NCBI RefSeq assembly: GCF_005281615.1
Contig: NZ_SZZM01000001.1
Span: 1,167,001 to 1,231,000, forward strand
Direction of reading: 5' to 3'
DNA from: Rhodoligotrophos defluvii
GTDB lineage: Bacteria > Pseudomonadota > Alphaproteobacteria > Rhizobiales > Im1
Length of the DNA: 64,000 nt
The translations under genes were made by a program, and so were the position numbers. The notes beneath the pieces were generated by a model, which saw only the letters and a list, made by a program, of their open reading frames with translations, did not search any database and was not told the DNA's origin. This document shows positions 2,594-17,429 of the stretch, piece by piece (position 1 is the first letter of the stretch; each line of letters begins with the position of its first letter).

Positions 2594-2709
2594 GACGTCC
2601 TCCTCGCAGGGTAGCAGCTTGGTTGTGAAGCCAACCGGGCCCGCTGTCCGAGGTTCCAGACACGGTCGATTTGCCATGCTTGCGCCGGCAGTTTGCGCGC
2701 GCCCGCAGT

Positions 2710-3153
2710 TCAGTGCTCCGGCCGGATGAGCACCAGGCCGCTCTCGGGGTCGTATCTCTTTTCGAGATGCGCGGGGTTCTCCGTGAGGATCACCTCGAGC
2801 GTCGGCCGCACGTGCGCTTCCGCCAGATGGCCGGCGAGCGCCGTTCCGTCACGCCTGCCGAGCACGGTGTGGATATGGATGGCCCGGCTGCCGTCGGGCG
2901 CGACCGCCACGTCGCCGTTGAGCGAGGCGACCTCGACCTGCTCTCCTACCGGATTGGGGATGTAGTCCTTCTTGTCCCAGTCGAAGAAGGTGATCACCGC
3001 GTCGCTGAACGCCCCGATCGCGGAGAACTGCGCGGCTGTCAGCCGCTCGCGATCGGCGAATTCCTGCAGCGCGGCCATGACCTCGTCTCCGGTCTCCAGA
3101 ACGAGGGCATAGGTCCTCTGCCCATCATTCTCTGCCAAAATCCTGCTCTGCAT
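2710..3153 (-). CDS. PPC (DUF296) domain protein
   Basis: 147-residue single-domain protein of the PPC/DUF296 family, the fold found in plant AT-hook proteins and in free-standing bacterial proteins with a possible metal site. The family pattern IHIHTVLGRRDG followed by GHLAEAHV (about residues 93-115) carries the conserved histidine cluster. Its function in bacteria is not established; DNA binding was proposed from the plant relatives. It lies about 115 nt upstream of the TPP enzyme on the same strand and may share its transcript. Its start faces the plus-strand GH15 gene across 179 nt. Confidence 0.8.
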   Translation of the reverse strand: MQSRILAENDGQRTYALVLETGDEVMAALQEFADRERLTAAQFSAIGAFSDAVITFFDWDKKDYIPNPVGEQVEVASLNGDVAVAPDGSRAIHIHTVLGRRDGTALAGHLAEAHVRPTLEVILTENPAHLEKRYDPESGLVLIRPEH

Positions 3154-3332
3154 CTTGCCACCTCAACCAGTGTTCACCTCGGAAATGAACGCCCACGTCT
3201 GTCAAACAGCATGCGTGGCGGTTGGTTTCAGCAAGACGTCGAATGTCATGGCGCGGCCGTCGCGCAAAGCCATGGCGAGTGGAACTCCCTTTGCGAGGTC
3301 CGAATTCCCACTCGAAGCCGTAGGGAACTTGA

Positions 3333-5312
3333 ATGGGACTGCGCATAGAAGATTACGCGCTCATCGGCGATTGCCGGACCGCGGCCCTGGTCGGCAATGA
3401 CGGATCGATCGACTGGCTGTGCCTGCCAGGCTTCGACTCGCCCGCTTGCTTCGCGGCCCTGCTCGGGGAGCCCGGAAACGGGCACTGGAAGATTGCGCCC
3501 AGCCAACCACCGAAACGCGTTAGCCGTCGATACCGACCGGAAAGCCTGGTGCTGGAGACGCTGTTCGAGACCGAAGATGGCGTCTGCAGGCTCACCGACT
3601 TCATGCCGATGACGAACGCTGCGCCGTCGCTTGTACGCATCGTGACGGGGCTCGAGGGCCGCGTCGATCTCAGGATGGATCTCGTCATCCGCTTTGACTA
3701 CGGCCGGCTGATACCCTGGGTCAGCCGGGCCGATCACGAGCTCGTCGCCATCGCCGGCCCCGATCTGCTCGTGCTGCGCACGCCCGCCCGGCATCGTGGC
3801 GAGGATCTGAAGACCGTCGTCGATTTTGCGGTTGGTCCGGGCGACGAGGTTCCGTTTGTCCTCAGCCACGGTCCGTCCCACCACGAGATGCCGGGCCCAA
3901 TCGATCCGCAAGCCGCGCTGGAGCATACGGAGACCAGTTGGCGCGACTGGGCTGCCCGATGCAACTACGAGGGCCGCTGGCGCGAGGCTGTCGTGCGGTC
4001 ACTGATCACGCTCAAGGCGCTGACATTCAGTGCGACGGGCGGCTTTATAGCCGCGCCGACCACCTCGCTCCCTGAGATGCCCGGCGGCTCACGAAACTGG
4101 GACTACCGTTTTTGCTGGCTCCGGGACGCCACGTTCGGACTGCTGTCGCTCATGCAGGCAGGCTACCGCCAGGAGGCGGTGGCCTGGCGCGATTGGCTGG
4201 TGCGGGCCGTGGCTGGGCATCCCTCCCAAATCCAGCCGCTCTACAGCATCACCGGTGCCCACCGAATGGATGAGTGGCAAGTGCCCTGGCTGCCCGGCTA
4301 CCGCGGAGCAACACCGGTGCGCGTCGGCAACGCCGCGTTTGCGCAGATCCAACTCGACACCTTCGGCGAGGTGCTGGACGCGCTCCATCACGCCCGCCGC
4401 TACGATCTCGCCCCGAGCCGGGAGAGCTGGTCTTTGCAGAAGGCCTTGCTCAGCTATCTCGAAACCCTGCGTGATGAGCCGGATCACGGCATTTGGGAAG
4501 TGCGCGGCCGCAAGCAGCATTTCACCCATTCGAAAGTCATGATGTGGGTGGCCTTCGATCGGGCAGTCTCAGCCGTCGAGGACTTCGATCTTGATGGTCC
4601 GGCCGACCGTTGGCGCAATCTGCGCGACAGCCTGCACGCGGAGATCTGTGAAAAGGCATTCAACCGGGATCTCGGCGCCTTCGTTCAGGCCTACGGGTCG
4701 AGCAATCTCGATGCAGCAACGCTCCTCATCCCGCTCGTCGGCTTCTTGCCGGCCAGCGACCCCCGCATGGTCGCCACCGTGGAGGCCATCGGCAAGCGGC
4801 TCGTGCGCGATGGCTTCGTCCATCGCTACGACACGCGCGAGGCGGAGGATGGCCTGCCGCCCGGCGAGGGCGTCTTCCTGGCGTGCACCTTCTGGTATAT
4901 CGACAATCTCGTCCTGCAGGGCAGATATGATGAGGGCAGCCGCATGTTCGAGAAGCTGCTCGGCATCCGCAATGATGTCGGCCTCCTTTCCGAGCAGTAT
5001 GATGTCGACGAGAGAACGCTCCTCGGCAACTTCCCCCAAGCGCTGTCGCATCTCGCCCTTATCGACACCGCCTACAACCTGCATGCGGCGCAGGGGCCCG
5101 CACGGGAACGGGCCAAGCACCGGCGGGGAATGATCCTGCAAGCGGCCGAGGCCGACCCTCGGGAAGGTAGGAGGTATCGTTTACAACGAGAACTATATAG
5201 TTTACATCGTCAACTAAATTGTGGCTGGCGCAATCGAGTGGACGACATTGTTGCTGGTCAGCCATTATCCCGCATGGACATGATGCCGCACGAGGTACCG
5301 AATGAACGCTGA
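3333..5312 (+). CDS. Glycoside hydrolase family 15 protein (glucoamylase/trehalase-like)
   Basis: Inverting alpha-glucosidase of family GH15, probably acting on trehalose or maltodextrins in the cytoplasm (no signal peptide). The N-terminal domain opens with IEDYALIGDCRTAALV. The (alpha/alpha)6 barrel has the signature NWDYRFCWLRDA from residue 255, candidate general acid E512 (PPGEGVF) and base E554 (LSEQYDV). Recognisable similarity ends near residue 612. The last ~45 codons run through the operator region of the next gene and overlap the marR start by 11 nt, so this tail looks like intergenic DNA that never acquired a stop. Codons there are more AT-rich than in the body of the gene. Confidence 0.9.
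   Translation: MGLRIEDYALIGDCRTAALVGNDGSIDWLCLPGFDSPACFAALLGEPGNGHWKIAPSQPPKRVSRRYRPESLVLETLFETEDGVCRLTDFMPMTNAAPSLVRIVTGLEGRVDLRMDLVIRFDYGRLIPWVSRADHELVAIAGPDLLVLRTPARHRGEDLKTVVDFAVGPGDEVPFVLSHGPSHHEMPGPIDPQAALEHTETSWRDWAARCNYEGRWREAVVRSLITLKALTFSATGGFIAAPTTSLPEMPGGSRNWDYRFCWLRDATFGLLSLMQAGYRQEAVAWRDWLVRAVAGHPSQIQPLYSITGAHRMDEWQVPWLPGYRGATPVRVGNAAFAQIQLDTFGEVLDALHHARRYDLAPSRESWSLQKALLSYLETLRDEPDHGIWEVRGRKQHFTHSKVMMWVAFDRAVSAVEDFDLDGPADRWRNLRDSLHAEICEKAFNRDLGAFVQAYGSSNLDAATLLIPLVGFLPASDPRMVATVEAIGKRLVRDGFVHRYDTREAEDGLPPGEGVFLACTFWYIDNLVLQGRYDEGSRMFEKLLGIRNDVGLLSEQYDVDERTLLGNFPQALSHLALIDTAYNLHAAQGPARERAKHRRGMILQAAEADPREGRRYRLQRELYSLHRQLNCGWRNRVDDIVAGQPLSRMDMMPHEVPNER
5179..5217. promoter_or_regulatory. 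Putative MarR operator, upstream copy
   Basis: The order is GTTTAC, 6 nt, AACTATATAGTTTAC (5191-5205), 3 nt, GTCAAC (5209-5214). The core AACTATATAGTT is a perfect 12-bp palindrome and contains a -10-like TATAGT. The same arrangement with identical spacing recurs at 5900-5935, upstream of the next operon. It is 90-110 nt before the marR start, so autoregulation is likely. It lies inside the 3' end of the GH15 reading frame. GTCAACTAA at 5209-5217 is also found next to the second MarR gene (32390). Confidence 0.7.
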
Positions 5313-5847
5313 ATCGGAGGCGAAAACACTGAACGGGCAAGCCGCGGACCAGCGCCTCCGCGATGTGCGCGACCTGTTCTCGTTCCAGCTTCAGCGGCTT
5401 GCCGCGCTTTCCAGCCGCATCGCCGTTTTGTCCATCGGACCACGCTACCGGCTCACCGTGTTGGAATGGCGCGCGCTCGCGGTGCTCGATTATCTTGGCC
5501 AGGCGCCATTGCAGAAGCTCGCGACCCACAGCGGCCTGCTCAAGAGCCAGATGAGCCGAACCGTATCAGGGCTCATTCAGCGGGGGCTCATCAGCCGGTC
5601 GGAAAACCCAGAGGACGGCCGTAGCATCCTGTTGCGGCTCACCGGCGCGGGCAAGGACGTGGTGACGCGAATCCTTGCGGATTCCGAAATGCGCAACGAG
5701 AACATGCTTGCGGATCTCTCGCCGGAAGAGCGGGCGCAGTTGCAAGCCGCACTGAAGGTCGTGTTCGCGACCAGCCTTGCCTATTACGATCGCCTTCGTT
5801 CCGAGGTCTCTTCCGCGGACGCGGCAGCTTTCGGCTTCGAGCCGTAA
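5302..5847 (+). CDS. MarR family transcriptional regulator
   Basis: 181-residue winged-helix regulator. The HTH is at about residues 58-95 (LQKLATHSGLLKSQMSRTVS) and the wing has the MarR pattern NPEDGRSILLRLT. The start ATG 5302 has GAGG 6 nt upstream. It is placed between two matching operators (5179-5217 and 5897-5935), one ahead of itself and one ahead of the ten-gene operon that begins at 5955. The simplest reading is an autoregulated local repressor of that operon, released by an amine, acid or acyl-CoA intermediate. The ligand is unknown. Confidence 0.9.
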   Translation: MNAESEAKTLNGQAADQRLRDVRDLFSFQLQRLAALSSRIAVLSIGPRYRLTVLEWRALAVLDYLGQAPLQKLATHSGLLKSQMSRTVSGLIQRGLISRSENPEDGRSILLRLTGAGKDVVTRILADSEMRNENMLADLSPEERAQLQAALKVVFATSLAYYDRLRSEVSSADAAAFGFEP

Positions 5848-5896
5848 CCCTCTCCCTCCGAAAGCTCCTCTTCCTCGCTACCAATCGAGCGTCCAC

Positions 5897-5935
5897 TTAG
5901 TTGACAATATGAACTATATAGTTTACGTTGTGAAC
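5897..5935. promoter_or_regulatory. Putative MarR operator, downstream copy (before aldehyde dehydrogenase operon)
   Basis: The order is GTTGAC (5900-5905), 6 nt, AACTATATAGTTTAC (5912-5926), 3 nt, GTGAAC (5930-5935), matching the site at 5179 in order and spacing. The 16 bases GAACTATATAGTTTAC are identical in the two sites. TATAGT at 5917-5922 could be the -10 of the operon starting at 5955, so binding would block transcription. TTAGTTGAC (5897-5905) is the inverse of the GTCAACTAA word seen at 5209 and 32390. Confidence 0.72.
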
Positions 5936-5954: not shown

Positions 5955-7391
5955 TTGACGGAACAGGCGCAGATATTCATCGACGGCGCATGGACGGGCG
6001 GTGAGGCGGGCCGCTGTGGCGACGTCATCGATCCGGCCAGCGGTCAGGCCTTCGCCACCGTGGCCCATGCATCCCTGGCCGATCTCGACCGTGCCCTTAG
6101 GGCTGCGGCGCGGTCCTTCGCCGAATGGCGCACGGTTTCCTCCTACGAGCGCTCGAAGCTTCTCCGCCGCGCTGCCGACCTCTTGCGCCAGCGCACGGAA
6201 GCGATCGCCGCGCTCGTCACGCGCGAGCAAGGAAAGCCGCTCAGCGAAGCGCGGCTTGAGGTGGCGGGCTCGGCCTGGTACGCAGAGGAGGGACGCCGTG
6301 CCTATGGCCGGCTCATCCCAGCGCGTGCGCCGGGCATCCGCCAACTGGTGGTCAAGGAGCCGATCGGCCCGGTCGCGGGGTTCTCGCCCTGGAACTTCCC
6401 GGTCAGCCAGGCGGTGCGCAAGATCGCCGGCGCGCTTGCGGCGGGCTGCAGCATCATCATCAAATGCCCGGAGGAAACACCCTTCAGCTGCATCGAGCTG
6501 GTGCGCTGTTTTGCTGATGCGGGCGTTCCGGCCGGGGTGGTCAACCTCGTGTTCGGCGAGCCGGCGGAGATCTCCCAATATCTCATCCCCGCGCCACAGA
6601 TCCGCAAGGTGTCCTTCACCGGCTCGATTCCCGTCGGCAAACGCTTGGGGATGCTGGCGGCGCAGCATGTCAAGCGCTGCACCCTGGAGCTCGGCGGGCA
6701 TGCGCCTTTCATCGTCTGCGCCGATGCCGATCCGGAAGAGGCCGTAAAGCTCGGCATTGCGCTCAAGTTCCGCAATGCCGGCCAGGTTTGCGCCGCACCG
6801 TCACGCTTCTATGTGCATGAGCGGCACTATCGTCGCTTCACCGATGCCTTCGTTGCCGGGGCCGAGCAGCTCAAGGTGGGGCCGGGCACGGAGCCGGGCG
6901 TGAACATGGGCCCGCTGGCGAACGCCCGCCGGCTCGAAGCCATGGCAGGTTTCGTGGCCGATGCGGAGGCGCGCGGCGCCAAGGTGCTCACCGGCGGCCG
7001 GCGCATTGGCAATCAGGGCAATTTCTTCGCCGCCACCGTGCTGACGGACGTGCCGGAGGACGCGCGTCTGATGGTAGAGGAACCCTTCGGGCCACTTGCG
7101 CCGATCGCGCGGTTCTCTGACCTCGACGATGTGATCGCCCGCGCCAACAGCCTGCCTTACGGGCTCGCCGCCTTCGCCTTCACCCGCTCGGAGCGCAATG
7201 CCACCTATCTCGGCGACAGGCTCGAGTCCGGCATGGTGTCGATCAACCACTTCGGCATTGCCGCGCCCGAGACGCCCTTCGGCGGCGTCAAGGAGAGCGG
7301 CTATGGCAGCGAAGGTGGGTCCGAAGGGCTCGAAGCATTTCTACAGACCAAGTTTATCAGCCAAGTCGGCCTGAGAGAGGCGGCAGCCTAG
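5955..7391 (+). CDS. NAD(P)-dependent aldehyde dehydrogenase (succinate-semialdehyde dehydrogenase-like)
   Basis: 478-residue ALDH that oxidises an aldehyde to the acid. The Rossmann part includes FSPWNFPVSQ, the general base is E245 (LELGGHAPF) and the catalytic thiol is C279 (GQVCAAPSRF). The start is assigned to TTG 5955 because GGGAG lies 9 nt upstream; the nearby ATG at 5939 is out of frame. It is the first gene of a plus-strand operon with a polyamine-type importer and a class III aminotransferase, which suggests that it takes the omega-aldehyde made by the aminotransferase to a (di)carboxylic acid. The exact substrate is inferred from context. Confidence 0.88.
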   Translation: MTEQAQIFIDGAWTGGEAGRCGDVIDPASGQAFATVAHASLADLDRALRAAARSFAEWRTVSSYERSKLLRRAADLLRQRTEAIAALVTREQGKPLSEARLEVAGSAWYAEEGRRAYGRLIPARAPGIRQLVVKEPIGPVAGFSPWNFPVSQAVRKIAGALAAGCSIIIKCPEETPFSCIELVRCFADAGVPAGVVNLVFGEPAEISQYLIPAPQIRKVSFTGSIPVGKRLGMLAAQHVKRCTLELGGHAPFIVCADADPEEAVKLGIALKFRNAGQVCAAPSRFYVHERHYRRFTDAFVAGAEQLKVGPGTEPGVNMGPLANARRLEAMAGFVADAEARGAKVLTGGRRIGNQGNFFAATVLTDVPEDARLMVEEPFGPLAPIARFSDLDDVIARANSLPYGLAAFAFTRSERNATYLGDRLESGMVSINHFGIAAPETPFGGVKESGYGSEGGSEGLEAFLQTKFISQVGLREAAA

Positions 7392-7447
7392 CCGCCGAAG
7401 AGTTCGGTCGCATGCTGGCAATGCCGGCAACCAAGGGAGGGAAAGAC

Positions 7448-8494
7448 ATGAAGGAGCGTAATTACCTGAGGAGGGGTTTGCTCGCCGCCATGGCGCTTGC
7501 CGCCATGGCCAGCATGGCGGCTGCCCAGGAGACCACGATCACGCTGGCCGGATTCGGCGGCAATCTCCAGGCGGATCTGAGCAAGACCCTGTTCGTCCCG
7601 GCCGCGGAGAAGGCCGGGATAAAACTGCGCGAGGAATCCCACGATGGCCTCGCCGGCGTTCGGGTGCAGGTTCAGTCGGGATCACCGGGCTGGGATGTCG
7701 CGCATCTCGGCGCGGAAGACTGCGCCATCGGCGCGAAGGAAGGCTTGTTCGAGCCCATCGACTACGCGGTCGTGGACGCGAAGGGGATTTCCGAGAATGC
7801 TCGCGGCGAGGATTGGGTGGGGACCAACACCTATTCCGTCGTGCTTGCCTGGCGCACCGACAAATACGGCGACAACCCGCCCAAGAACTGGAAGGACTTC
7901 TGGAACGTCGAGGCCTTCCCCGGCCGTCGCGCCCTCAGCGTCTATCCGCAGGAGATGATGGAGATCGCGTTGATTGCGGATGGCGTGCCCTTGGACAAGG
8001 TCTATCCGCTGGACGTCGAGCGCTCGCTCGCCGCGCTCGAACGGATGAAGCCGAATATCGGTGTCTGGTGGACCTCCGGCGCGCAATCCGCGCAGCTGAT
8101 CAAGGACGGCGAGGTCGACATGCTGGCCATCTGGGGAAGCCGCGTGGCCGGCGTTATCGCCGATGGCGCGCCCGTGAAGTTCACCTACCAGGACGGCATC
8201 CTCGGCTTCGGCTGCGTGGCCATTCTGAAGGGCTCCGAGAACGTCGAGGCAGCGCAGAAGTTCATCGCCGGGGTCGTGTCGCCGGAAATCCAGGCGCGTA
8301 TCCCTACTATGATGAGCTATTATGGCCCGACCAACAGCCGCGCCTTCGAGGTCGAGAAATTCCCGCCCGAGGTGCTCGCGCAATCGAACGCCTCGCCCGA
8401 AAACGCGGCCAAGCAGCTGGTGCTGCAGCCCGCCTGGTGGGCGGACAACAACCAGGACGTGAGCGAGGAATACAAGAACCTGATCATTCAGTAA
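7448..8494 (+). CDS. ABC transporter substrate-binding protein, spermidine/putrescine type
   Basis: 348-residue periplasmic binding protein of the PotD/PotF-like group. A signal peptide is clear (MKERNYLRRGLLAAMALAAM, then an Ala-rich stretch ending near AAAQ at residues 22-26). The mature protein begins ETTITLAGFGGNLQ, typical of this family. The start at 7448 is preceded by GGGAGG with 6 nt spacing; the in-frame ATG at 7412 would bury the signal peptide. It is followed by the ATPase and two permeases in the usual order. Ligand specificity is not readable from sequence alone; polyamine or another small cationic amine fits the neighbours. Confidence 0.88.
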   Translation: MKERNYLRRGLLAAMALAAMASMAAAQETTITLAGFGGNLQADLSKTLFVPAAEKAGIKLREESHDGLAGVRVQVQSGSPGWDVAHLGAEDCAIGAKEGLFEPIDYAVVDAKGISENARGEDWVGTNTYSVVLAWRTDKYGDNPPKNWKDFWNVEAFPGRRALSVYPQEMMEIALIADGVPLDKVYPLDVERSLAALERMKPNIGVWWTSGAQSAQLIKDGEVDMLAIWGSRVAGVIADGAPVKFTYQDGILGFGCVAILKGSENVEAAQKFIAGVVSPEIQARIPTMMSYYGPTNSRAFEVEKFPPEVLAQSNASPENAAKQLVLQPAWWADNNQDVSEEYKNLIIQ

Positions 8495-8509
8495 TCGCGT
8501 GCGAGGTGG

Positions 8510-9580
8510 ATGGCAGCCATGCCGGGCAAGGTTTCAATCCGCAAGGTCAGCAAGACCTATGGCGCGTTCACGGCGCTGGATGACATCTCCCTCGACATCG
8601 CGGCGGGGGAGTTCCTGACGCTGCTCGGGCCATCGGGGTCGGGTAAGACCACCTTGCTCAATGTGCTCGCCGGTTTCGTGCGGCCTGACCGCGGGAGTGT
8701 GATGGTCGATGGCGTGGAGTTCCTGGCTTTGCCGCCGAACAAGCGCAATGTCGGCATGGTGTTCCAGAACTACGCGCTGTTCCCGCATATGGATGTGCAG
8801 GAAAATGTCGGCTATCCGCTGCGCCTGCGTGGCGTGAGGGGCGCTGCGCAGGCGGCGCGGGTGCAGGCAGCGCTCGACATGGTGCAGATGGGGCATCTCG
8901 CCTCCCGCGGGATCAACGCGCTCTCAGGTGGCCAGCGTCAGCGGGTGGCGCTGGCCCGGGCCATCGTGTTCGAGCCCTCGATTCTCCTGATGGACGAGCC
9001 GTTGTCGGCCCTGGACAAGAAGCTGCGCGAGCATATGCAGCTCGAGCTGAAGCGTCTGCACCAGCGGCTCGGCACCACAACGGTCTATGTCACGCACGAC
9101 CAGCGCGAGGCGTTGACCCTGTCGGACCGGATCGCGGTGATCAATGACGGCAGGGTGGTCCAGCTGGGCACGCCGGACGACGTCTACAACCGGCCCGTCA
9201 ACAAATTCGTCGCCGACTTCATCGGCGATACCCATTTCGTCCCCGTTGATATCAGCCCGTCGGGTCCTGCCCTGCAGGGCCGAAGCCTGGACATGCGGGA
9301 ACCCTGGACCGGGGGCGAGAAGCCGTGGCTGGTCGTCCGGCCGGAACGGCTGAGCTGGCGAGAGACCGAGGGCAGGCCGTCCAACCGCATCGACGCAACA
9401 GCAACCGGCGTCATCTATCAGGGAGACAGTTACCTCGTGTCGCTGCGGCTGCCCGAGGGCATCGAGATCGACCTGCGCCGTTCGCCCGAGCTTGCCGGCG
9501 AACGACTGCCCGAGCCGGGAGAGGACATCTCCCTCTGGCTCGATCGCGAGCACACCATCCTGGTGGCGGACCGGCCATGA
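8510..9580 (+). CDS. ABC transporter ATP-binding protein (PotA-like)
   Basis: 356-residue ATPase energising the amine importer. Walker A is GPSGSGKTT (residues 40-48), the Q-loop region is VFQNYALFP, the signature LSGGQRQRVALARA starts at 138, and Walker B is ILLMDEP with D162/E163, followed by VTHDQREALTLSDR. The C-terminal TOBE-like domain (about 280-350, VVRPERLSWRE) is typical of PotA/MalK-type subunits and often senses regulatory signals. Its stop overlaps the first permease start (ATGA at 9577), consistent with translational coupling. Confidence 0.92.
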   Translation: MAAMPGKVSIRKVSKTYGAFTALDDISLDIAAGEFLTLLGPSGSGKTTLLNVLAGFVRPDRGSVMVDGVEFLALPPNKRNVGMVFQNYALFPHMDVQENVGYPLRLRGVRGAAQAARVQAALDMVQMGHLASRGINALSGGQRQRVALARAIVFEPSILLMDEPLSALDKKLREHMQLELKRLHQRLGTTTVYVTHDQREALTLSDRIAVINDGRVVQLGTPDDVYNRPVNKFVADFIGDTHFVPVDISPSGPALQGRSLDMREPWTGGEKPWLVVRPERLSWRETEGRPSNRIDATATGVIYQGDSYLVSLRLPEGIEIDLRRSPELAGERLPEPGEDISLWLDREHTILVADRP

Positions 9581-10488
9581 CGATGCCGCTTCTCATGGAA
9601 GGCACGGCCACCACCACCCGCACGCTCAATGAACCGCTGCTCAAGCGCCAGGAACTCCGCGAGCGGGCCGCGCTTTGGTCGCTCTCGCTTCCCGGCGCGG
9701 CGCTGATCTTCATCGTGCTCGTTCTGCCGATAGGCTGGCTGTTCTGGCTCTCCTTCTTCGATGCGGCCGGCGAGCCGTCACTGGTGAATTACCAGCGTAT
9801 GCTGCGCTCGGTTTATGTGAAGACTTTCATCACCACCTTCGAGGTGGCGGGTCTCGTGACCGTGCTCTGTGTGCTGCTCGGCTATCCCGTCGCCTATCTC
9901 CTGTCGCAGGTTTCGCGCCGCACGGCCACCATTCTCCTTGTGTTCGTCATGCTGCCGTTCTGGACGTCGGTGCTCGTGCGGACCTATGCCTGGCTCGTGC
10001 TCCTGCAGCGCACGGGGCTCATCAACAGCTGGCTCGTCGGCAGCGGACTGATCGATGAGCCAGTCCCCCTTGTCCACAATTTCTTCGGCACCGTCGTCGG
10101 CATGGTGCACATCATGCTGCCCTTCCTGGTGCTGCCGCTCTATGCTTCGATGCGCGCGATCGACCCGGTGCTCGTGCGCGCCGCCGCCAATTGCGGCGCC
10201 TCGCCCGCGCAGGCTTTCCGCCAGGTCTTCCTGCCGCTGTCGCTGCCGGGCCTTGCTGCGGGTGTCGGCCTCGTCTTCGTGCTCTGCCTCGGCTTCTTCG
10301 TCACGCCGGCGCTGCTCGGCGGCGGGCGCGTGCCCATGTGGGCCATGCGGATTGCCGACAACATCGCCGTCTATGGCAATTGGGGCGCAGCGAGCGCTCT
10401 CGGGGTGGCGCTGCTTGTGGTCACCGGGCTGATCCTTCTCGCGCTGCGCCGGCTGTTCAAGGTCGACGCCATGGGCGGAGGCCACTGA
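9577..10488 (+). CDS. ABC transporter permease, PotB-type
   Basis: 303-residue inner-membrane permease with about six transmembrane helices; the first is near residues 27-50 (LPGAALIFIVLVLPIGWLFW). The cytoplasmic EAA-like loop reads ANCGASPAQAFRQVFLPLSL. The start at 9577 is set by the 4-nt ATGA overlap with the ATPase gene; the longer open frame upstream is out-of-frame shadow of that gene. It forms a heterodimeric channel with the next gene, whose start overlaps its stop at 10488. Confidence 0.9.
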   Translation: MTMPLLMEGTATTTRTLNEPLLKRQELRERAALWSLSLPGAALIFIVLVLPIGWLFWLSFFDAAGEPSLVNYQRMLRSVYVKTFITTFEVAGLVTVLCVLLGYPVAYLLSQVSRRTATILLVFVMLPFWTSVLVRTYAWLVLLQRTGLINSWLVGSGLIDEPVPLVHNFFGTVVGMVHIMLPFLVLPLYASMRAIDPVLVRAAANCGASPAQAFRQVFLPLSLPGLAAGVGLVFVLCLGFFVTPALLGGGRVPMWAMRIADNIAVYGNWGAASALGVALLVVTGLILLALRRLFKVDAMGGGH

Positions 10489-11306
10489 TGCTGAACCAGC
10501 CCGCCACCGCCACCCAAATTACCCATCTGCAGCGCCTCTGGCTCTATGGGCTGGTGGGTGCCGTGCTCCTGTTCCTGATCGTGCCGTGCCTGATCGTCGT
10601 GCCGATGTCCTTCTCCGGCAGCCAATATCTGGAGTTCCCGCCGCGCAGCTGGAGCCTGCGCTGGTATGAGGCCTATCTCGCCTCGCCGGAATGGCGTGCG
10701 GCGACCTCCGTCTCCATTCGCGTGGCGTTGATCACCACCGCGCTCGCCACAGCATTGGGCACCCTCGCGGCCTACGGGCTCGTGCGGGTGCGCAGCGCGC
10801 TGGTGACCGCCGGGCGCGCGGTTTTCATGCTGCCCATGCTGGTGCCGTTGATCCTCGTGGCGATCGGCTGCTTCTTCGTCTATGCCCGTCTTGGGCTGAA
10901 CAGCACCATCACCGGCCTCGTGCTCGCCCATACGGTGCTGGCGCTGCCCTTCGTCGTCATTGCCGTGTCGAGCGGGCTCGCGAGCTACGACATGAATCAG
11001 GAGCGCGTCGCCCAGAGCCTCGGCGCCTCGCGGCCATGGGCGTTCCTCACCGTCACCCTGCCGCAGATAAAGCTGTCGGTGGTCTCCGGTGCGCTGTTCG
11101 CCTTCGTCACCTCCTTCGACGAGGTCGTCGTGGCGCTGTTCGTTTCCAGCGGGGAGACCGCGACGCTCACCCGGCTGATGTTCGCCAACATCCGCGACCA
11201 GATCGACCCGACGGTTGCGGCGATCTCGTCCCTGCTCATCGGGCTGTCGATCCTGCTCCTGCTGGGATCGCAGCTTCTGCAGCGCGCCGGAGACAGCAGG
11301 CAATGA
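10488..11306 (+). CDS. ABC transporter permease, PotC-type
   Basis: 272-residue permease with about six helices and the EAA-type loop AQSLGASRPWAFLTVTLPQI, the conserved contact with the ATPase. The PotC-like stretch ISSLLIGLSILLLLGSQLL forms the last helix. The start shares one base with the stop of the PotB-type gene (TGATG), and its own stop overlaps the next start at 11303, so all four transporter genes and the downstream enzymes appear translationally coupled. Confidence 0.9.
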   Translation: MLNQPATATQITHLQRLWLYGLVGAVLLFLIVPCLIVVPMSFSGSQYLEFPPRSWSLRWYEAYLASPEWRAATSVSIRVALITTALATALGTLAAYGLVRVRSALVTAGRAVFMLPMLVPLILVAIGCFFVYARLGLNSTITGLVLAHTVLALPFVVIAVSSGLASYDMNQERVAQSLGASRPWAFLTVTLPQIKLSVVSGALFAFVTSFDEVVVALFVSSGETATLTRLMFANIRDQIDPTVAAISSLLIGLSILLLLGSQLLQRAGDSRQ

Positions 11307-12247
11307 GGCCGGAGGTCACCATTTGCGAGTGCTTCGCGCGCGACGGCCTCCAGCACGAGCCGGAGTTCGTGGCGACCACGGACAAGATCGCTCTGATCGA
11401 CGCCTTCACGACCACGGGCTTTCCGCGCATCGAGGCCACGAGCTACAGCCATCCCGAGCGGGTGCCCGCCTTTCGCGACGCGAGCGACGTGCTCGCCGGC
11501 ATCTCGCGCAGGCCGGGTGTCTGGTATAAGGCCACATGTCCGAACCGCAATGCGGTCGAGCGTGCGCTCGCCGACCTCGCGGCCGGCCGAGGCGCCAACG
11601 AGATCAGCCTGCTCGCCTCGGCCACGGAAGCGCATACCGAGCACAATCTGCGCACGAGCCGCGCGGGCCAGTGGCAGCGCATCGAAGAAATGGCGCGAAT
11701 AGCCGGCGGTCGCTTCCGGCTGGTCGGTGTCATCTCCGTGGCGCTCGGCTGCCCGTTCGAGGGCGCCGTCGACCCCCACAGGGTGGCCGAGGACGCACGC
11801 CGCTTTGCCGCCCTGGGCGCTCGACTCGTCACCATCGGCGACACGACCGGCCTTGCCACGCCATCCAGCGTCCGGCGGCTGTTCCGCATCCTGCGCGAGC
11901 AGGCGCCCGAGGTGAGCCCGATCGCACATTTCCACGATACGCGCGGCGCTGCCCTCGCCAATTGCCTTGCCGCGTTCGAGGAAGGCTGCCGCCATTTCGA
12001 CTCGTCGTTCGGGGGCGTGGGCGGCCATCCCGCTGCGATCCGCTACGGCGAAGGCCACACGGGCAACGTGGCGACCGAGGATCTCGTCAACCTGCTCGAG
12101 GCGGAGGGGATTACCACCGGTCTCGACCTTGACCGAGTGATGGCGGCCTCGCGCCTTTGCGAGCAGGTGCTCAAGCGCGAGCTCGACAGCAAGGTGGCGC
12201 GCGCCGGCTTCGGCGGGCTTTCGCGCGGGAAAATGCAACATGCCTGA
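11303..12247 (+). CDS. Hydroxymethylglutaryl-CoA lyase-like protein lacking the signature cysteine
   Basis: 314-residue DRE-TIM metallolyase-like barrel of the HMG-CoA lyase family, expected to cleave a 3-hydroxyacyl-CoA by retro-aldol chemistry. Seen: R13-D14 (ARDGLQ), metal histidines H209 and H211 with D212 (HFHDT), and the NVATEDLV segment with N255. The family signature GLGGCP is replaced by GGVGGHP (237-243), so the mobile-loop catalytic cysteine (Cys266 in the human enzyme) is a histidine here. It may therefore act on a different substrate or by a modified mechanism. The gene overlaps the permease by 4 nt and the next crotonase by 8 nt. Confidence 0.85.
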   Translation: MRPEVTICECFARDGLQHEPEFVATTDKIALIDAFTTTGFPRIEATSYSHPERVPAFRDASDVLAGISRRPGVWYKATCPNRNAVERALADLAAGRGANEISLLASATEAHTEHNLRTSRAGQWQRIEEMARIAGGRFRLVGVISVALGCPFEGAVDPHRVAEDARRFAALGARLVTIGDTTGLATPSSVRRLFRILREQAPEVSPIAHFHDTRGAALANCLAAFEEGCRHFDSSFGGVGGHPAAIRYGEGHTGNVATEDLVNLLEAEGITTGLDLDRVMAASRLCEQVLKRELDSKVARAGFGGLSRGKMQHA

Positions 12248-12989
12248 AGGAATAGCGGTGAAACCACTGATCGTGGAGGATCGGGGGCCTGTGCGCATCC
12301 TGCGCATGAACCGCCCCGACAAGCTCAATGCGCTGAATACGGAGCTCACCCAGGCCCTGCTCGACGGGCTGCTGGAGGCGGATTCGACCGAGGGCGTGCG
12401 GGCCATCGTGCTGGCCGGCGAAGGGCGCGCCTTCTGCGCCGGCGCGGATCTCTCGGAGTTCAAGGAGCTCACGCCGGAGCGGCAGCACCTCGTCGTGACG
12501 CGCGCTGACCTCACCTGCCGACTGCAGTCGCAGCTGCAGCGTTCATCGAAACCCATCGTCTCGGCGGTGCAGGGGGCGGCGCTTGGCGGTGGGGCCGGGC
12601 TTGCCATTGGTTGCGACATGATGGTGGCGGCGAGCGATCTCAAGTTCGGCTATCCCGAACTCAGGCACGGTATCGTGCCGGCGCTGGTGATGACCGGCCT
12701 GCAGCGCCAGCTCGGCCGCAAGGCGGCCTTCGAGATGATCAGCCTCGGCCGGTTGATCGGCGCGGAAGAGGCGAAGACGCTGGGCCTCGTCAACCGGATC
12801 GCCGCGCCTTCCGACATTCTTGATGTCGCGCTGGAGATCGCCGAGGCTTGGGCCGCGGCCAACCCGCGAGCCATGGCGGCGGCCAAGGGCCTGTTCTATC
12901 GCGTGGCGGACCTTCCTTTCGATGCGGCCATGGCCGCCGGCCGCGACGTCAACGCGCTGATGCGCGGCTTTCGCGAGGCCGCCGGATGA
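12240..12989 (+). CDS. Enoyl-CoA hydratase/isomerase family protein
   Basis: 249-residue crotonase-fold protein acting on a CoA thioester. Oxyanion-hole segments are FCAGADLSEF (about 64-73) and AALGGGAGLA (about 110-119). Of the two catalytic glutamates of classical hydratases, the second is kept (FGYPELRHG) but the first, normally in GGGCEL, is glycine here (GGGAGL). Isomerase, hydrolase or lyase activity is therefore as likely as hydration. It starts 8 nt inside the HMG-CoA-lyase-like gene and its stop overlaps the CoA-transferase start. Confidence 0.88.
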   Translation: MPEGIAVKPLIVEDRGPVRILRMNRPDKLNALNTELTQALLDGLLEADSTEGVRAIVLAGEGRAFCAGADLSEFKELTPERQHLVVTRADLTCRLQSQLQRSSKPIVSAVQGAALGGGAGLAIGCDMMVAASDLKFGYPELRHGIVPALVMTGLQRQLGRKAAFEMISLGRLIGAEEAKTLGLVNRIAAPSDILDVALEIAEAWAAANPRAMAAAKGLFYRVADLPFDAAMAAGRDVNALMRGFREAAG

Positions 12990-14173
12990 AGCCGCTGCAA
13001 GGCCTCAATATCCTTGATTTCACGCGCGTGCTCGCGGGGCCCATGGCCACGCAGATCCTGGCGGAGCTGGGCGCGGACGTGATCAAGATCGAGCGGCCGG
13101 GCACGGGCGACGAGACCCGCAGTTTCGAACCCAGGGTCGAGAGCGGCGACAGCGGCTATTTCTTCGCCTTCAACCGCGGCAAGAAATCGGTGACGCTGAA
13201 TCTCAAGTCCCCGCGCGGGCAGGAGATTGCCCGGGCGCTTGCACGCGGCGCCGACGTGGTGGTTGAGAATTTCCTGCCCGGCGAGATGGACCGCTTCGGG
13301 CTGGGCTATGAGCAGCTCGCAGCGGAGAACCCGGGCCTGGTCTATGTCTCCACCACCGGCTTCGGCCAAACCGGCCCCTATAGCGACCGCAATGGCTACG
13401 ACACCGTCTTCCAGGCGCTCTCCGGCGTGATGGCGCTGACCGGCCATGCAGATGGCCCGCCGGCAAAGGTCGGGGTTCCCTTCGCCGACTTGACCTCCGG
13501 CCTGTGGGTCGCGATCGCGATCCTCGCCGGCGTGCTCGGCCGCCAGGCATCGGGCAAGGGCACGCGGGTTGACCTTTCCATGCTCGATGTGCAGGTCAGC
13601 ATGCTGACCATCGCCGCTGCCCGTTATTTCATTCTCGGCGAGGACCCGCAGCGCAGCGGCACCGAGCATCCCGGCCGCGTGCCATCGGCCGCCTTTCCCT
13701 GCGCCGATGGCAAGTGGTTGCATATCAGCGGCAGCGACCAGCACTGGCGCGCCATCTGCCGGGTGCTGGAGCTCGACGACCTCGCCGCCGATCCGGAGCT
13801 TGCGCACAATACTGGCCGCGTGGCTGCCCGTTCCCGGGTGATGGCGGCCATGGGCGAGGCGATCGCGCGACATCCTCGCGATGCGCTCGCCGAGACCTTG
13901 CGCGCGGCCGGCGTACCGGCGGGCGAGGTCAATACGGTGGTGGAGACACTGAACGACCCACACGTGCAAGCGCGCGGGCTTGTCGATGCTTTCGATCATC
14001 CCCGAGCCGGGCGGGTGAGGGCGCTGCGCACGCCCGTCCGCTTCACCAGCTTTGACGATCCCGAAACCGCCGCGCCGCCGCTTCTCGGGGCCGATACCGA
14101 TGCGATTCTGGGGCACCGGCTCGGGCTTTCAGATGCGGAGCTTTCGGCCTTGCGCGCAGAAGGAGTGATATGA
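12986..14173 (+). CDS. CaiB/BaiF family (class III) CoA-transferase
   Basis: 395-residue CoA-transferase moving CoA between an acyl-CoA and a free acid. The N-terminus has the family opening LDFTRVLAGPMATQILAELGADVIKIE (residues 10-36). The catalytic aspartate is D168 in VPFADLTSG, at the position equivalent to Asp169 of formyl-CoA transferase. In this operon it would activate the acid formed by the aldehyde dehydrogenase, avoiding ATP use. The start at 12986 overlaps the crotonase stop (ATGA) and the stop overlaps the next crotonase start. Confidence 0.9.
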   Translation: MKPLQGLNILDFTRVLAGPMATQILAELGADVIKIERPGTGDETRSFEPRVESGDSGYFFAFNRGKKSVTLNLKSPRGQEIARALARGADVVVENFLPGEMDRFGLGYEQLAAENPGLVYVSTTGFGQTGPYSDRNGYDTVFQALSGVMALTGHADGPPAKVGVPFADLTSGLWVAIAILAGVLGRQASGKGTRVDLSMLDVQVSMLTIAAARYFILGEDPQRSGTEHPGRVPSAAFPCADGKWLHISGSDQHWRAICRVLELDDLAADPELAHNTGRVAARSRVMAAMGEAIARHPRDALAETLRAAGVPAGEVNTVVETLNDPHVQARGLVDAFDHPRAGRVRALRTPVRFTSFDDPETAAPPLLGADTDAILGHRLGLSDAELSALRAEGVI

Positions 14174-14952
14174 CCATGACCGACGAAGCGCCGGTCCTGC
14201 TGGAGCGCGACGGCACCATTGTCCGCGTGGTGCTGAACAGGCCCGAGGCGCGCAACGCCCTCAACCTGCCTATGTGCTTGGCGCTGCGCGAGGCCTTCGA
14301 GCGCATCGATGGGGATCTTGAGATCCGTGCGGTGCTGGTGGAGGGGAAAGGCGACGTGTTCTGCGCTGGCGCGGATATGAAGGAGCGCAAGGATCGCGAT
14401 GCGATTTGGATCCGCCAACGGCGCATTGCTGCCTTTCAGGCTTACGCGGCCATCGAGCGCTGTACACGGCCGGTGATCGCGCTCGTTCAGGGCCCGACCG
14501 TGGGCTCCGGTGGCGAGATCGCCATGAGCTGCGATTTCGTGGTCGCGGCCAGCAATGCGAGCTTCCGCTTTCCCGAGGCACATTGGGGGACGGTGGGCGC
14601 CACCCAGCGCCTGCAGCGCGTCATCGGCCGCTCGCGTGCGAAGGAGCTGCTGTTCACCGCCCGCCAAATGCCGGTGGAGGAAGCGGTCACGCTTGGTTTG
14701 GTGGCACGCATTGTGGAGCCGGAAGTCCTGGCCGAGACGGGGCTCGCCCTGGTGCGCCGGATTGCGGAGGCGCCACCGCTTGCCATGGTACTGACCAAGC
14801 AGGCGGTGGAACTCGGTGCTTGCGCCGATCTCGATGCGGGCATCAGGATCGAGCTCGCCGCCATTGAACGCCTGCTCGCCGATGGCGGGTGGAAGGCGAG
14901 CATCGATAATTTCGTCCGCACCGTCGGGGGCAAGGGCGACGCGACGGACTGA
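14170..14952 (+). CDS. Enoyl-CoA hydratase
   Basis: 260-residue crotonase with the canonical active site: oxyanion segments FCAGADMKER and GPTVGSGGEIAM, and both catalytic glutamates present (GSGGEIAM and FPEAHWGTVG). A true hydratase adding water to a 2-enoyl-CoA is the simplest call. It begins at 14170, overlapping the CoA-transferase stop; MTMTDE gives an alternative start 6 nt later. It is the second crotonase of the operon; unlike the one at 12240 it keeps both glutamates, so the two likely do different steps. Confidence 0.9.
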   Translation: MTMTDEAPVLLERDGTIVRVVLNRPEARNALNLPMCLALREAFERIDGDLEIRAVLVEGKGDVFCAGADMKERKDRDAIWIRQRRIAAFQAYAAIERCTRPVIALVQGPTVGSGGEIAMSCDFVVAASNASFRFPEAHWGTVGATQRLQRVIGRSRAKELLFTARQMPVEEAVTLGLVARIVEPEVLAETGLALVRRIAEAPPLAMVLTKQAVELGACADLDAGIRIELAAIERLLADGGWKASIDNFVRTVGGKGDATD

Positions 14953-15001
14953 TCCGGAGACACGCGGTATTGCCGGCCACCCGCCAGGACAGGAGAACCA
15001 C

Positions 15002-16381
15002 ATGAACCTCATCGCCAATTCGCCTTCGGCGCGCGACATCGCCTATCAGGTGCACCCGCAGACCAATATCCGCCTGCACGAGGCGGGCGGCCCGCTCATC
15101 ATTGCGCGCGGCGAGGGCGTGTACGTCTTCGACAACGATGGCAAGCGCTATCTCGACGCCATGGCCGGCCTCTGGTGCGTGTCGCTCGGCTATTCCGACA
15201 CTGCCGTGAAGGAGGCGGTGAAGGCGCAGATCGACGAGCTGCCCTATTTCCATCTGTTCGCCCACCGCTCCAACAATCCGGCCATCGATCTCGCCCAGCG
15301 TCTCATCGAGAAGGCGCCCGGCATGTCGAAGGTGATTTTTCAGAGCTCCGGCTCGGAGGCCAACGACACGGCGGTCAAGCTCATCTGGTACTATTGGAAC
15401 GCGCGCGGCAGGCCGGCGAAGAAAAAGATCATCGCTCGTAAGCGCGCCTATCACGGCACCGGCATCGCGTCGGGAAGCCTGACCCACCTTCCCAATATTC
15501 ATCGCGAGTTCGATTTGCCGATCGATCGCTTCCTGCATACGACGTGCCCGCATTTCTATCGCGAGGGCAGACCGGGCGAGAGCGAGGCGGCGTTTGTGGA
15601 GCGCTTGGCTGGGGAGCTCGAAGAGCTGATCCTGGCGGAGGACCCGAACACGGTGGGCGGCTTCTTCGCCGAACCGGTCATGGGCACGGGCGGCGTGGTG
15701 GTGCCGCCCGAGGGCTATTTCGAGGCGATCGGCAAGGTGCTGAAGAAATACGATATCCTCGCCGTGTCGGATGAGGTGATCTGCGGGTTCGGCCGTACGG
15801 GCAGCTATTGGGGCGCCGACGCCCTCGGCTTCACGCCGGATATCCTGACCTGTGCCAAGTCGCTCTCCTCCGCCTATCTACCGATTTCCGCGGTGTTGGT
15901 GTCCGAGTCGATCTTCGAGGCCATGCGCGGGCAATCGGACAAGGTGGGGGTGTTCGGCCATGGCTATACCTATGGCGGCCACCCGGTTTGCGCCGCGGCG
16001 GCTGTTGCGGCGATGGATCGCTACGACGCGCTGCAGACCACGCGAAACGCGCGCGAGACAGGGGCCTACCTGCAGGAGCGCCTGCAGGCGCTGGCGGCGC
16101 ATCCGCTGGTGGGCGAGGTGCGCGGCATCGGCCTGATGGCGGGCGTCGAGTTCGTGCGCGACAAGGACACGAAGGCGCCCTTCGATCCGGCGCTGGCGGT
16201 GGGCGCTGCCTGCTCGAAATTCGCGCTCGATCGCGGCCTCATCACGCGCAACCTCGGCGACACCATGTCGTTCTCACCGCCGCTCATCATCACGCGCGCG
16301 GAGGTCGACGAGATCGTCTCCACCTTTGCGACCGCCTTGGACGAGACGCTTGCCTGGGCCAGGGAGAAGGGCCTGAAATAG
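15002..16381 (+). CDS. Class III aminotransferase (omega-amine/putrescine:pyruvate type)
   Basis: 459-residue PLP enzyme moving a terminal amino group from an amine or omega-amino acid to a 2-oxo acid, usually pyruvate. Seen: SSGSEANDTAVKL (PLP phosphate), AYHGTGIASGSL, the cofactor aspartate in VSDEVICGFGRTG, and the Schiff-base lysine K286 in TCAKSLSSAYLP. The start at 15002 follows CAGGAGAACCAC; the longer open frame from 14816 overlaps the crotonase in another frame. As last gene of the operon it probably feeds aldehyde to the dehydrogenase encoded first. Substrate (putrescine, cadaverine, beta-alanine or similar) is not settled by sequence. Confidence 0.9.
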   Translation: MNLIANSPSARDIAYQVHPQTNIRLHEAGGPLIIARGEGVYVFDNDGKRYLDAMAGLWCVSLGYSDTAVKEAVKAQIDELPYFHLFAHRSNNPAIDLAQRLIEKAPGMSKVIFQSSGSEANDTAVKLIWYYWNARGRPAKKKIIARKRAYHGTGIASGSLTHLPNIHREFDLPIDRFLHTTCPHFYREGRPGESEAAFVERLAGELEELILAEDPNTVGGFFAEPVMGTGGVVVPPEGYFEAIGKVLKKYDILAVSDEVICGFGRTGSYWGADALGFTPDILTCAKSLSSAYLPISAVLVSESIFEAMRGQSDKVGVFGHGYTYGGHPVCAAAAVAAMDRYDALQTTRNARETGAYLQERLQALAAHPLVGEVRGIGLMAGVEFVRDKDTKAPFDPALAVGAACSKFALDRGLITRNLGDTMSFSPPLIITRAEVDEIVSTFATALDETLAWAREKGLK

Positions 16382-16397: not shown

Positions 16398-17429
16398 TCA
16401 GGCACCGGAGGTCGCGCGAAAGCCTTCCATGAAGCGGATGAGGTTGAGCCCGAGGATGGGCGAGGGATAGCCGCCCTCCTGGATGATCACCGTCGGCCGG
16501 CCGATGGCGCCCAGCATTTCGCCCATGCGGGCAAAGCCATCGCTCGTCACGCGCATGCAGGCGAAGGGATCGGCCTCCGAGGCGTCGAGCCCGAGCGGGA
16601 GGATAACCATATCAGGGGAAAAGTCGCGGGTTGCCGCAATCCCTTCTTCGACGGCGGCGAGGTAGGCCTCGTCGCCCGAGAGCGGGGCAACCGGCAGGTT
16701 GAGGTTGAATCCCTCGCCAAGCTCCGCGCCGCGCTCGTCCGCGTAGCCCGCATAGAACGGAAACGTTGTCGACGGATCGGCGTGCACCGAGATGGTCTGC
16801 ACGTCCGGTCGGCCATAGAAGATCGCCTGAGTGCCGTTGCCGTGGTGAACGTCCACGTCGAGGATGGTGACGCGCTCGACCGAGCGTCTGGCGCGTGCTG
16901 CGGCGATCGCCCCATTGTTGAGAAAACAGTACCCGCAGGCCATGTCGGGATAGGCGTGATGCCCCGGCGGCCGGCAGAGCGCGTAGGCCGCCGGCGCGCC
17001 GTCGAGCACGCGGCGAGTGGCCTCGAGGGCGCTTGCGGCGCTGGCCAGCACGGCCGGCCACGTATCCTCCACCAGCACGCTGGCCGCGTCGTTGATGTAG
17101 TAGCCGGCGCGTCCGAGCAGATCCTCCGGCAGCCGGCGCATATAGGGGCTGATATGCAGGCTGGGCCGCAGCTCGACACTGTCGGGAAACCGCTCCTTCC
17201 AAGCCGCAAACCCCGTCTCCAGAAAATGCAAATAGCCGCGGTCGTGAATTTCTTGGATCACGTCCATCGCCGCCGGTCCGGGCTCGACAATGGCCGAGGT
17301 GCACTGCTTCGCTGCCTCGAGCAGGGCCGAAAGCCGCTCGGGTGTCTCCACGGCGTCAATCAGCCTCCCGCCGGAAAGCCGGGTGCGCACGCGATGCCCG
17401 AGCTCGTGTTCATGAAAAACGGTGATCAT
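16398..17429 (-). CDS. Histone-deacetylase-family amidohydrolase (acetylpolyamine amidohydrolase-like)
   Basis: 343-residue zinc amidohydrolase that removes acetyl groups from N-acetylated amines. Catalytic histidines H157-H158 (RPPGHHAYP), zinc ligands D193 and H195 (DVDVHHGNG) and D282 (GLDASEADP), and Y321 in EGGYP. Length and spacing match the acetylpolyamine amidohydrolases of the family (Mycoplana ramosa enzyme 341 residues, ligands offset by about two). It converges on the amine-uptake operon with 16 nt between the ends, which supports an acetylated polyamine as one operon substrate. It is separately transcribed, so this link is an inference. Confidence 0.88.
   Translation of the reverse strand: MITVFHEHELGHRVRTRLSGGRLIDAVETPERLSALLEAAKQCTSAIVEPGPAAMDVIQEIHDRGYLHFLETGFAAWKERFPDSVELRPSLHISPYMRRLPEDLLGRAGYYINDAASVLVEDTWPAVLASAASALEATRRVLDGAPAAYALCRPPGHHAYPDMACGYCFLNNGAIAAARARRSVERVTILDVDVHHGNGTQAIFYGRPDVQTISVHADPSTTFPFYAGYADERGAELGEGFNLNLPVAPLSGDEAYLAAVEEGIAATRDFSPDMVILPLGLDASEADPFACMRVTSDGFARMGEMLGAIGRPTVIIQEGGYPSPILGLNLIRFMEGFRATSGA

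Follow-up and report, generated by a model that had tools for sequence, protein, structure and literature searches.

A marR gene of Rhodoligotrophos defluvii flanked by two doubled palindromic sites, predicted operators of the encoded regulator

A marR gene between two 36-bp sites

The window analysed here, 64,000 nucleotides of Rhodoligotrophos defluvii (NCBI RefSeq assembly GCF_005281615.1, contig NZ_SZZM01000001.1, positions 1,167,001 to 1,231,000), contains a gene for a MarR-family regulator (marR, 5302-5847, plus strand, 181 amino acids) that is bracketed by two near-identical 36-bp sites. Site A (GTTTACAACGAGAACTATATAGTTTACATCGTCAAC, 5179-5214, minus strand) lies upstream of marR and is oriented leftward, while site B (GTTGACAATATGAACTATATAGTTTACGTTGTGAAC, 5900-5935, plus strand) is oriented rightward and stands before ten colinear genes (5955-16381) of a putative amine/coenzyme A (CoA) operon. 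The two sites agree at 29 of 36 positions, share a longest common run of 16 bases and both contain AACTATATAGTT, a perfect 12-bp palindrome. An earlier interpretation made from the letters alone (the sequence-only reading) had described these positions, the 16 identical bases and the palindrome, with one site before marR and the other before the ten genes, and all of this was found again in our analysis. It had also spoken of a first marR gene, but PF01047 (E up to 0.001) gives only one MarR gene within the window, and the orthologue profile (E up to 1) returns this gene alone.

Each site consists of two 15-bp palindromes of the GTTKAC-N3-GTSAAC type joined by a 6-bp linker, with their centres 21 bp, that is, two turns of B-DNA, apart. 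On the plus strand, site A reads GTTTACAACGAGAAC-TATATA-GTTTACATCGTCAAC: a second, weaker 15-mer (5179-5193), the linker (5194-5199) and, on the right, the outer, strong 15-mer (5200-5214), which reads GTTGACGATGTAAAC on the minus strand and holds TTGAC. Site B reads GTTGACAATATGAAC-TATATA-GTTTACGTTGTGAAC; here the outer, strong 15-mer (5900-5914, plus strand) holds TTGACA, a likely -35 box, and is followed by the linker (5915-5920) and the second 15-mer (5921-5935), which ends 19 bases short of the following gene's start codon. Symmetry of the whole sites about their centres is imperfect (13 and 14 of 18 pairs). With up to one mismatch, GTTNACNNNGTNAAC has five matches in the window, four of which are these 15-mer units (0.5 expected), and a 36-mer pattern with up to three mismatches matches sites A and B only (0.00 expected from 100 dinucleotide shuffles). 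When a slightly tighter pattern was applied to the 5.49-Mb genome, again with up to three mismatches, sites A and B were the sole matches and the reversed control gave 0. Because the centres of the 15-mers are 21 bp apart, two MarR dimers would be able to bind next to each other on one face of the helix. In our view, each of the two sites is likely a doubled operator that takes two such dimers of the MarR whose gene lies between them.

The protein that we take to bind both sites carries the MarR winged-helix domain PF01047 (49.3 bits versus a curated cut-off of 24.6) and has orthologues in other genomes. In its AlphaFold monomer model, with a mean predicted local distance difference test score (pLDDT) of 68.7, the winged helix-turn-helix core is confident; pLDDT is below 50 over residues 1-32, 34-41 and 173-181. 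Structure comparison, performed as a re-ranking of Foldseek matches, recovered the MarR fold, the best of the matches listed being 4yif_B (Z 16.2, root-mean-square deviation (rmsd) 2.6, 125 aligned residues), along with many further MarR structures. KSQMSR, at the start of modelled helix 81-93, is invariant in all 20 aligned MarR sequences (the window's own and those of 19 of the 25 loci from the first orthologue scan, see below), and this helix is the putative recognition helix.

Conservation of the sites with the regulator

Scanning genome contigs with the MarR protein yielded 25 loci, of which a short, distant fragment from Lachnospiraceae (L055, 36% identity) was dropped. The 24 loci kept comprise 18 from Phyllobacteriaceae, Rhizobiaceae and Brucellaceae (L031-L047 and L054, 54-81% identity) and six from Rhodobacteraceae-type families and Roseibium (L048-L053). 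In the first group, site A is doubled at all 18 loci and site B is present at all 18, doubled at 11 and single at seven (L036-L039, L045-L047). All 18 A sites were found at up to four mismatches, versus none in 1800 dinucleotide-shuffled versions of the upstream 400 bp from these loci.

Two gene orders occur. In the window and in L031-L034, marR and the genes for an aldehyde dehydrogenase (ALDH), an ATP-binding cassette (ABC) solute-binding protein (SBP) and PotA are colinear. At the other 14 loci, the SBP, PotA and permease genes diverge from marR, and genes for a hydroxymethylglutaryl-CoA lyase (HMGL), an enoyl-CoA hydratase and a CoA-transferase lie downstream; one of these loci (L054) has extra sequence between site B and the HMGL gene, including an aminotransferase-like gene (31%). 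By this comparison, the predicted operators stay with marR while their targets move. The sequence-only reading had taken the sites for operators of this MarR, which the comparison supports, and had named loss of the sites despite kept synteny as grounds for refutation; the opposite was found, with both sites doubled in all four relatives that keep the order marR-ALDH-SBP-PotA.

The scan that located the outer 15-mers made no assumption about spacing. Averaged over 38 sites from 19 loci (window included), the position weight matrix of the outer 15-mer peaks, besides at itself, at +21 (z 8.6), where 31 of the 38 sites score above 5 bits; at the next offsets, +9 and -9 (z 3.9 and 3.5), none of the 38 does. 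After removal of near-copies, 27 of 32 sites at 16 loci are doubled. The linkers of these doubled sites comprise 16 different sequences, each 6 bp long, and the perfect 12-mer occurs in three of the 27, of which two are sites A and B of the window. The sequence-only reading had described an extended structure of three parts round the 12-bp palindrome, which could bind two dimers. The comparison supports possible binding of two dimers, but a three-part site with the 12-mer as its core was rejected, since the 12-mer is not conserved, and is replaced by two 15-bp palindromes and a constant 6-bp linker; judged across relatives, the perfect 12-bp palindrome is incidental.

These counts also bear on a simpler arrangement, in which a single MarR dimer per site would bind the central palindrome and the outer arms would serve as wing contacts or promoter elements. 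The 12-mer is indeed perfect and identical in both window sites, and the loci with a single-type site B suggest that one dimer can suffice. But the rarity of the 12-mer among doubled sites and the variety of linkers argue against a conserved centre, and the single-site loci retain the outer 15-mer, not the middle of the site. We regard one dimer on the central palindrome as unlikely.

The motif did not appear at loci of related regulators: among 29 loci of distant MarR paralogues, neither a doubled site (four mismatches) nor an exact 15-mer was found. In later genome searches, orthologues (E 1e-30 or better) turned up in 4 of the 397 genomes covered for the order, 7 of the 394 for one family and 1 of the 385 for the class, where the genome of the window is counted in the order and class sets and one genome in both the order and family sets. 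Nine new loci were obtained in this way, five with doubled sites and four (L060, L061, L066 and L067) without.

Polarity, precedents and the predicted switch

Sites A and B align with each other when both are oriented outward from marR. GTTGAC opens the outer 15-mer in 38 of 38 sites and the second copy in none of 31; since it is invariant in the one and never found in the other, TTGAC is suggested to serve at the same time as -35 box for a promoter that points outward. Behind site A, the same-order relatives (L031-L034) carry a RidA-family gene and then a flavin-reductase gene that diverge from marR (approximately 2670-3750, minus strand), and in the other gene order the SBP operon is the leftward partner. 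No close copy of the relatives' RidA protein was found in the genome of the window (best E 5e-5, 30% identity), and the leftward partner of site A is missing in the window. The sequence-only statement that this site precedes marR is right as to position, but site A is not simply marR's own promoter box, because it points away from marR and faces a divergent gene in relatives.

At site B, the 19-base gap to the ALDH start codon was counted as support for a promoter. In site B of L036, L037, L038, L046 and L047, a CATTTC, CATCTC or CATCAC segment 17 bp after TTGACA is kept despite the lost second palindrome; it is possibly an unusual -10 box and was likewise counted as promoter support. The linker CTATAT was set aside as a -10 of the rhizobial type, as no conserved -35 was seen by eye 17 bp upstream.

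Both the half-site type and the occupancy of a promoter by two dimers have precedents, as far as excerpts from the publications go. According to an excerpt of PMC9892617, the MexR operators PI and PII of the Pseudomonas aeruginosa mexR-mexAB-oprM locus are inverted repeats of GTTGA spaced by 5 bp (GTTGACCTTATCAAC within PII), each repeat pair takes one dimer, and the sites overlap the promoters of the regulator and of the target operon. Here the left arm GTTGA and the 5-bp gap are seen in all 38 outer 15-mers, the right arm TCAAC in one. In contrast to what the excerpt describes, two palindromes are fused here with a constant 21 bp from centre to centre, and the surrounding genes are for amine/CoA catabolism, whereas MexR controls an efflux pump. 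Our MarR matches the 1lnw profile of MexR at E 2.1e-9 and the structure 1lnw_A with Z 14.1 (rmsd 3.7, 123 aligned residues, 22% identity). We rejected it as a MexR orthologue on the weak profile match and on a neighbourhood of amine/CoA catabolic instead of efflux-pump genes; the two proteins are only remote relatives.

MepR of Staphylococcus aureus may bind the mepA promoter as two dimers, at high- and low-affinity sites overlapping -35 and -10 (excerpt of the review PMC3617543). This MarR-family repressor resembles the present case in its possible two-dimer promoter occupancy, but its motif is GTTAG and its target an efflux gene, and the passage in question describes neither a fixed two-turn doubling nor outward sites flanking the regulator. 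CouR of Rhodococcus jostii represses a catabolic regulon, the cou genes, from a 5-bp-spaced repeat over the -35 box; the CoA thioester p-coumaroyl-CoA is the inducer that releases it, and one box is proposed to serve divergent promoters (excerpt of PMC4737184). CouR has one single box per promoter there, versus doubled sites here. What sets the present sites apart is their doubling at a constant two turns, together with their outward-facing arrangement on either side of the regulator gene. No publication evidently on this operator or cluster was found among the literature matches listed, judged by titles and the openings of abstracts.

Doubling, constant spacing, conservation with the regulator through rearrangement and outward polarity are what the comparison of sequences brings out, and the sites are very probably operators, an ordinary kind of gene switch with a tidy architecture. 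In the switch we propose, MarR dimers would occupy both 15-mers on the same DNA face and cover an outward promoter, with the outer TTGAC as -35 box and the second 15-mer over the -10 and start region, and would repress by blocking RNA polymerase. An inducer, perhaps a CoA thioester of the pathway or an amine (substrate or CoA intermediate), would release MarR. Site B would control the ten-gene amine/CoA operon and site A would control marR, in relatives also a divergent operon. With considerably more reserve, we suggest that the two-turn spacing may have stayed fixed despite linker drift because the dimers touch, and that an outward, cooperative pair may give steep, coordinated control that survives the reshuffling of operons.

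Several observations weigh against this picture. A sigma-70 scan matched neither site in the forward direction, its sole match lying on the minus strand inside site B, and for this reason the promoters stay putative; the segment 17 bp after TTGAC that we propose as -10 agrees poorly with the consensus, and left of site A the window has no leftward gene listed except antisense open reading frames (ORFs) of a GH15 gene. In the outer 15-mer, the right arm has the TCAAC of the MexR excerpt in one of 38 sites only (TGAAC in 29, TAAAC in 8). Single 15-mers are little commoner in the genome than in the control (50 versus 39, counted strand-wise at up to one mismatch). A wider regulon was rejected on this near-control level, and the sole other perfect 15-mer match (C1:705543), situated between a pair of convergent ORFs, resembles background. 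Since single 15-mers are near background and the doubled site occurs at only two places in the genome, specificity is suggested to come from the doubling. Yet the second 15-mer is missing in seven of 18 B sites, so that doubling is not essential everywhere; the loci of Metarhizobium, Shinella, Rhizobium, Ensifer and Brucella pecoris have probably lost this copy or never acquired it. The orthologue set stems mainly from one scan, and the five later doubled-site loci (L058 and L062-L065), rejected as an independent hold-out, add no independent support because all are near-copies of loci already in the set (L034, L036, L041, L046 and L031, respectively). Finally, ten farther orthologues (L048-L053, L060, L061, L066, L067) have no doubled site; the last four come from the same taxonomic order as the window, and two of these belong to the family of a doubled-site genome. 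The best single-site match near the marR start beats 200 mononucleotide shuffles in nine of the ten (P 0.02 or less); L066 is the one that does not (P 0.08), and the L050 locus holds a better match at another position.

The farther orthologues also hint at how the arrangement arose. L060, with a more distant MarR, has 15-mer-like sites at 1399-1419 and 2030-2050, either side of the gene, and a different downstream gene (TctC-like by eye). Because single-type sites thus occur on both sides of its marR, bracketing may be older than doubling. In the MarR tree (26 rows; L039, L042, L045, L055, L058 and L062-L065 left out), the doubled-site loci fall on one side of a 100/99 branch, and since the farther orthologues carry single sites, the doubling was probably gained once, in that lineage.

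Another regulator, or elements of a sigma-factor promoter, might instead explain the conserved sites, with the proximity of marR a coincidence. The -35-like GTTGAC, invariant in the outer arm, and the persistence of a CATTTC-like segment where the second palindrome is lost would fit this explanation. However, the motif follows this MarR clade across changes of gene order, stands on both sides of marR in L060 despite the different downstream gene, is missing from all 29 paralogue loci and resembles a palindrome bound by MexR, and we judge such a coincidence very unlikely. Least probable of all is that MarR acts as an activator, as some MarR proteins do (excerpt of PMC4737184), or loops the DNA between the paired sites that bracket its own gene, 721 bp apart in the window, rather than simply occluding promoters: the A-B distance is not constant, as it ranges from 674 to 904 bp in 18 relatives, and the sites overlap the putative core promoter, which is typical of repressors.

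Gene neighbourhood and biological meaning

If this MarR acts on both sites as proposed, its predicted targets in the window include the genes behind site B. The first of these is the ALDH gene (5955-7391, PF00171, TTG start in the ORF list), followed on the same plus strand by genes for the SBP (7412-8494; a weak PotD match of 35.8 bits, under the cut-off of that model), a PotA-like ABC ATPase with a TOBE domain (8510-9580), two ABC permeases (9577-10488 and 10485-11306), an HMGL-family protein (11306-12247), an enoyl-CoA hydratase (12240-12989), a family III CoA-transferase (12983-14173), another enoyl-CoA hydratase (14170-14952) and, as tenth gene, a class III aminotransferase (15002-16381). 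Convergent to the end of this operon lies a gene for a histone-deacetylase-domain protein (16398-17429, PF00850), which we take to be possibly an acetylpolyamine amidohydrolase.

On the other side, site A sits inside the 3' tail of a GH15 (trehalase-like) ORF on the plus strand (3333-5312). Alignments of the full ORF with the GH15 proteins of five relatives and with a second copy in the same genome (C2:612464) stop at residues 583-595 of 659, and the C-terminal tail alone (5121-5312, plus strand), which overlaps the marR start, showed no homology to any of them (E 0.1 or worse). Because the alignments stop early and the tail is without homology, the approximately 60 codons beyond the homologous end look like read-through across a junction, probably the edge of an acquired cluster. 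Neither the two genomes of the same genus nor the single one of the same family in the sample has a close marR, which is consistent with horizontal gain.

For an amine/CoA catabolic cluster that is patchy in rhizobial relatives, our analysis supplies a probable regulator together with a DNA motif and the targets predicted from it. The doubled site suggests a source of specificity, and the loci, from those with single sites through those doubled at one site to those doubled at both, form a natural series in which the contribution of a second MarR dimer could be measured.
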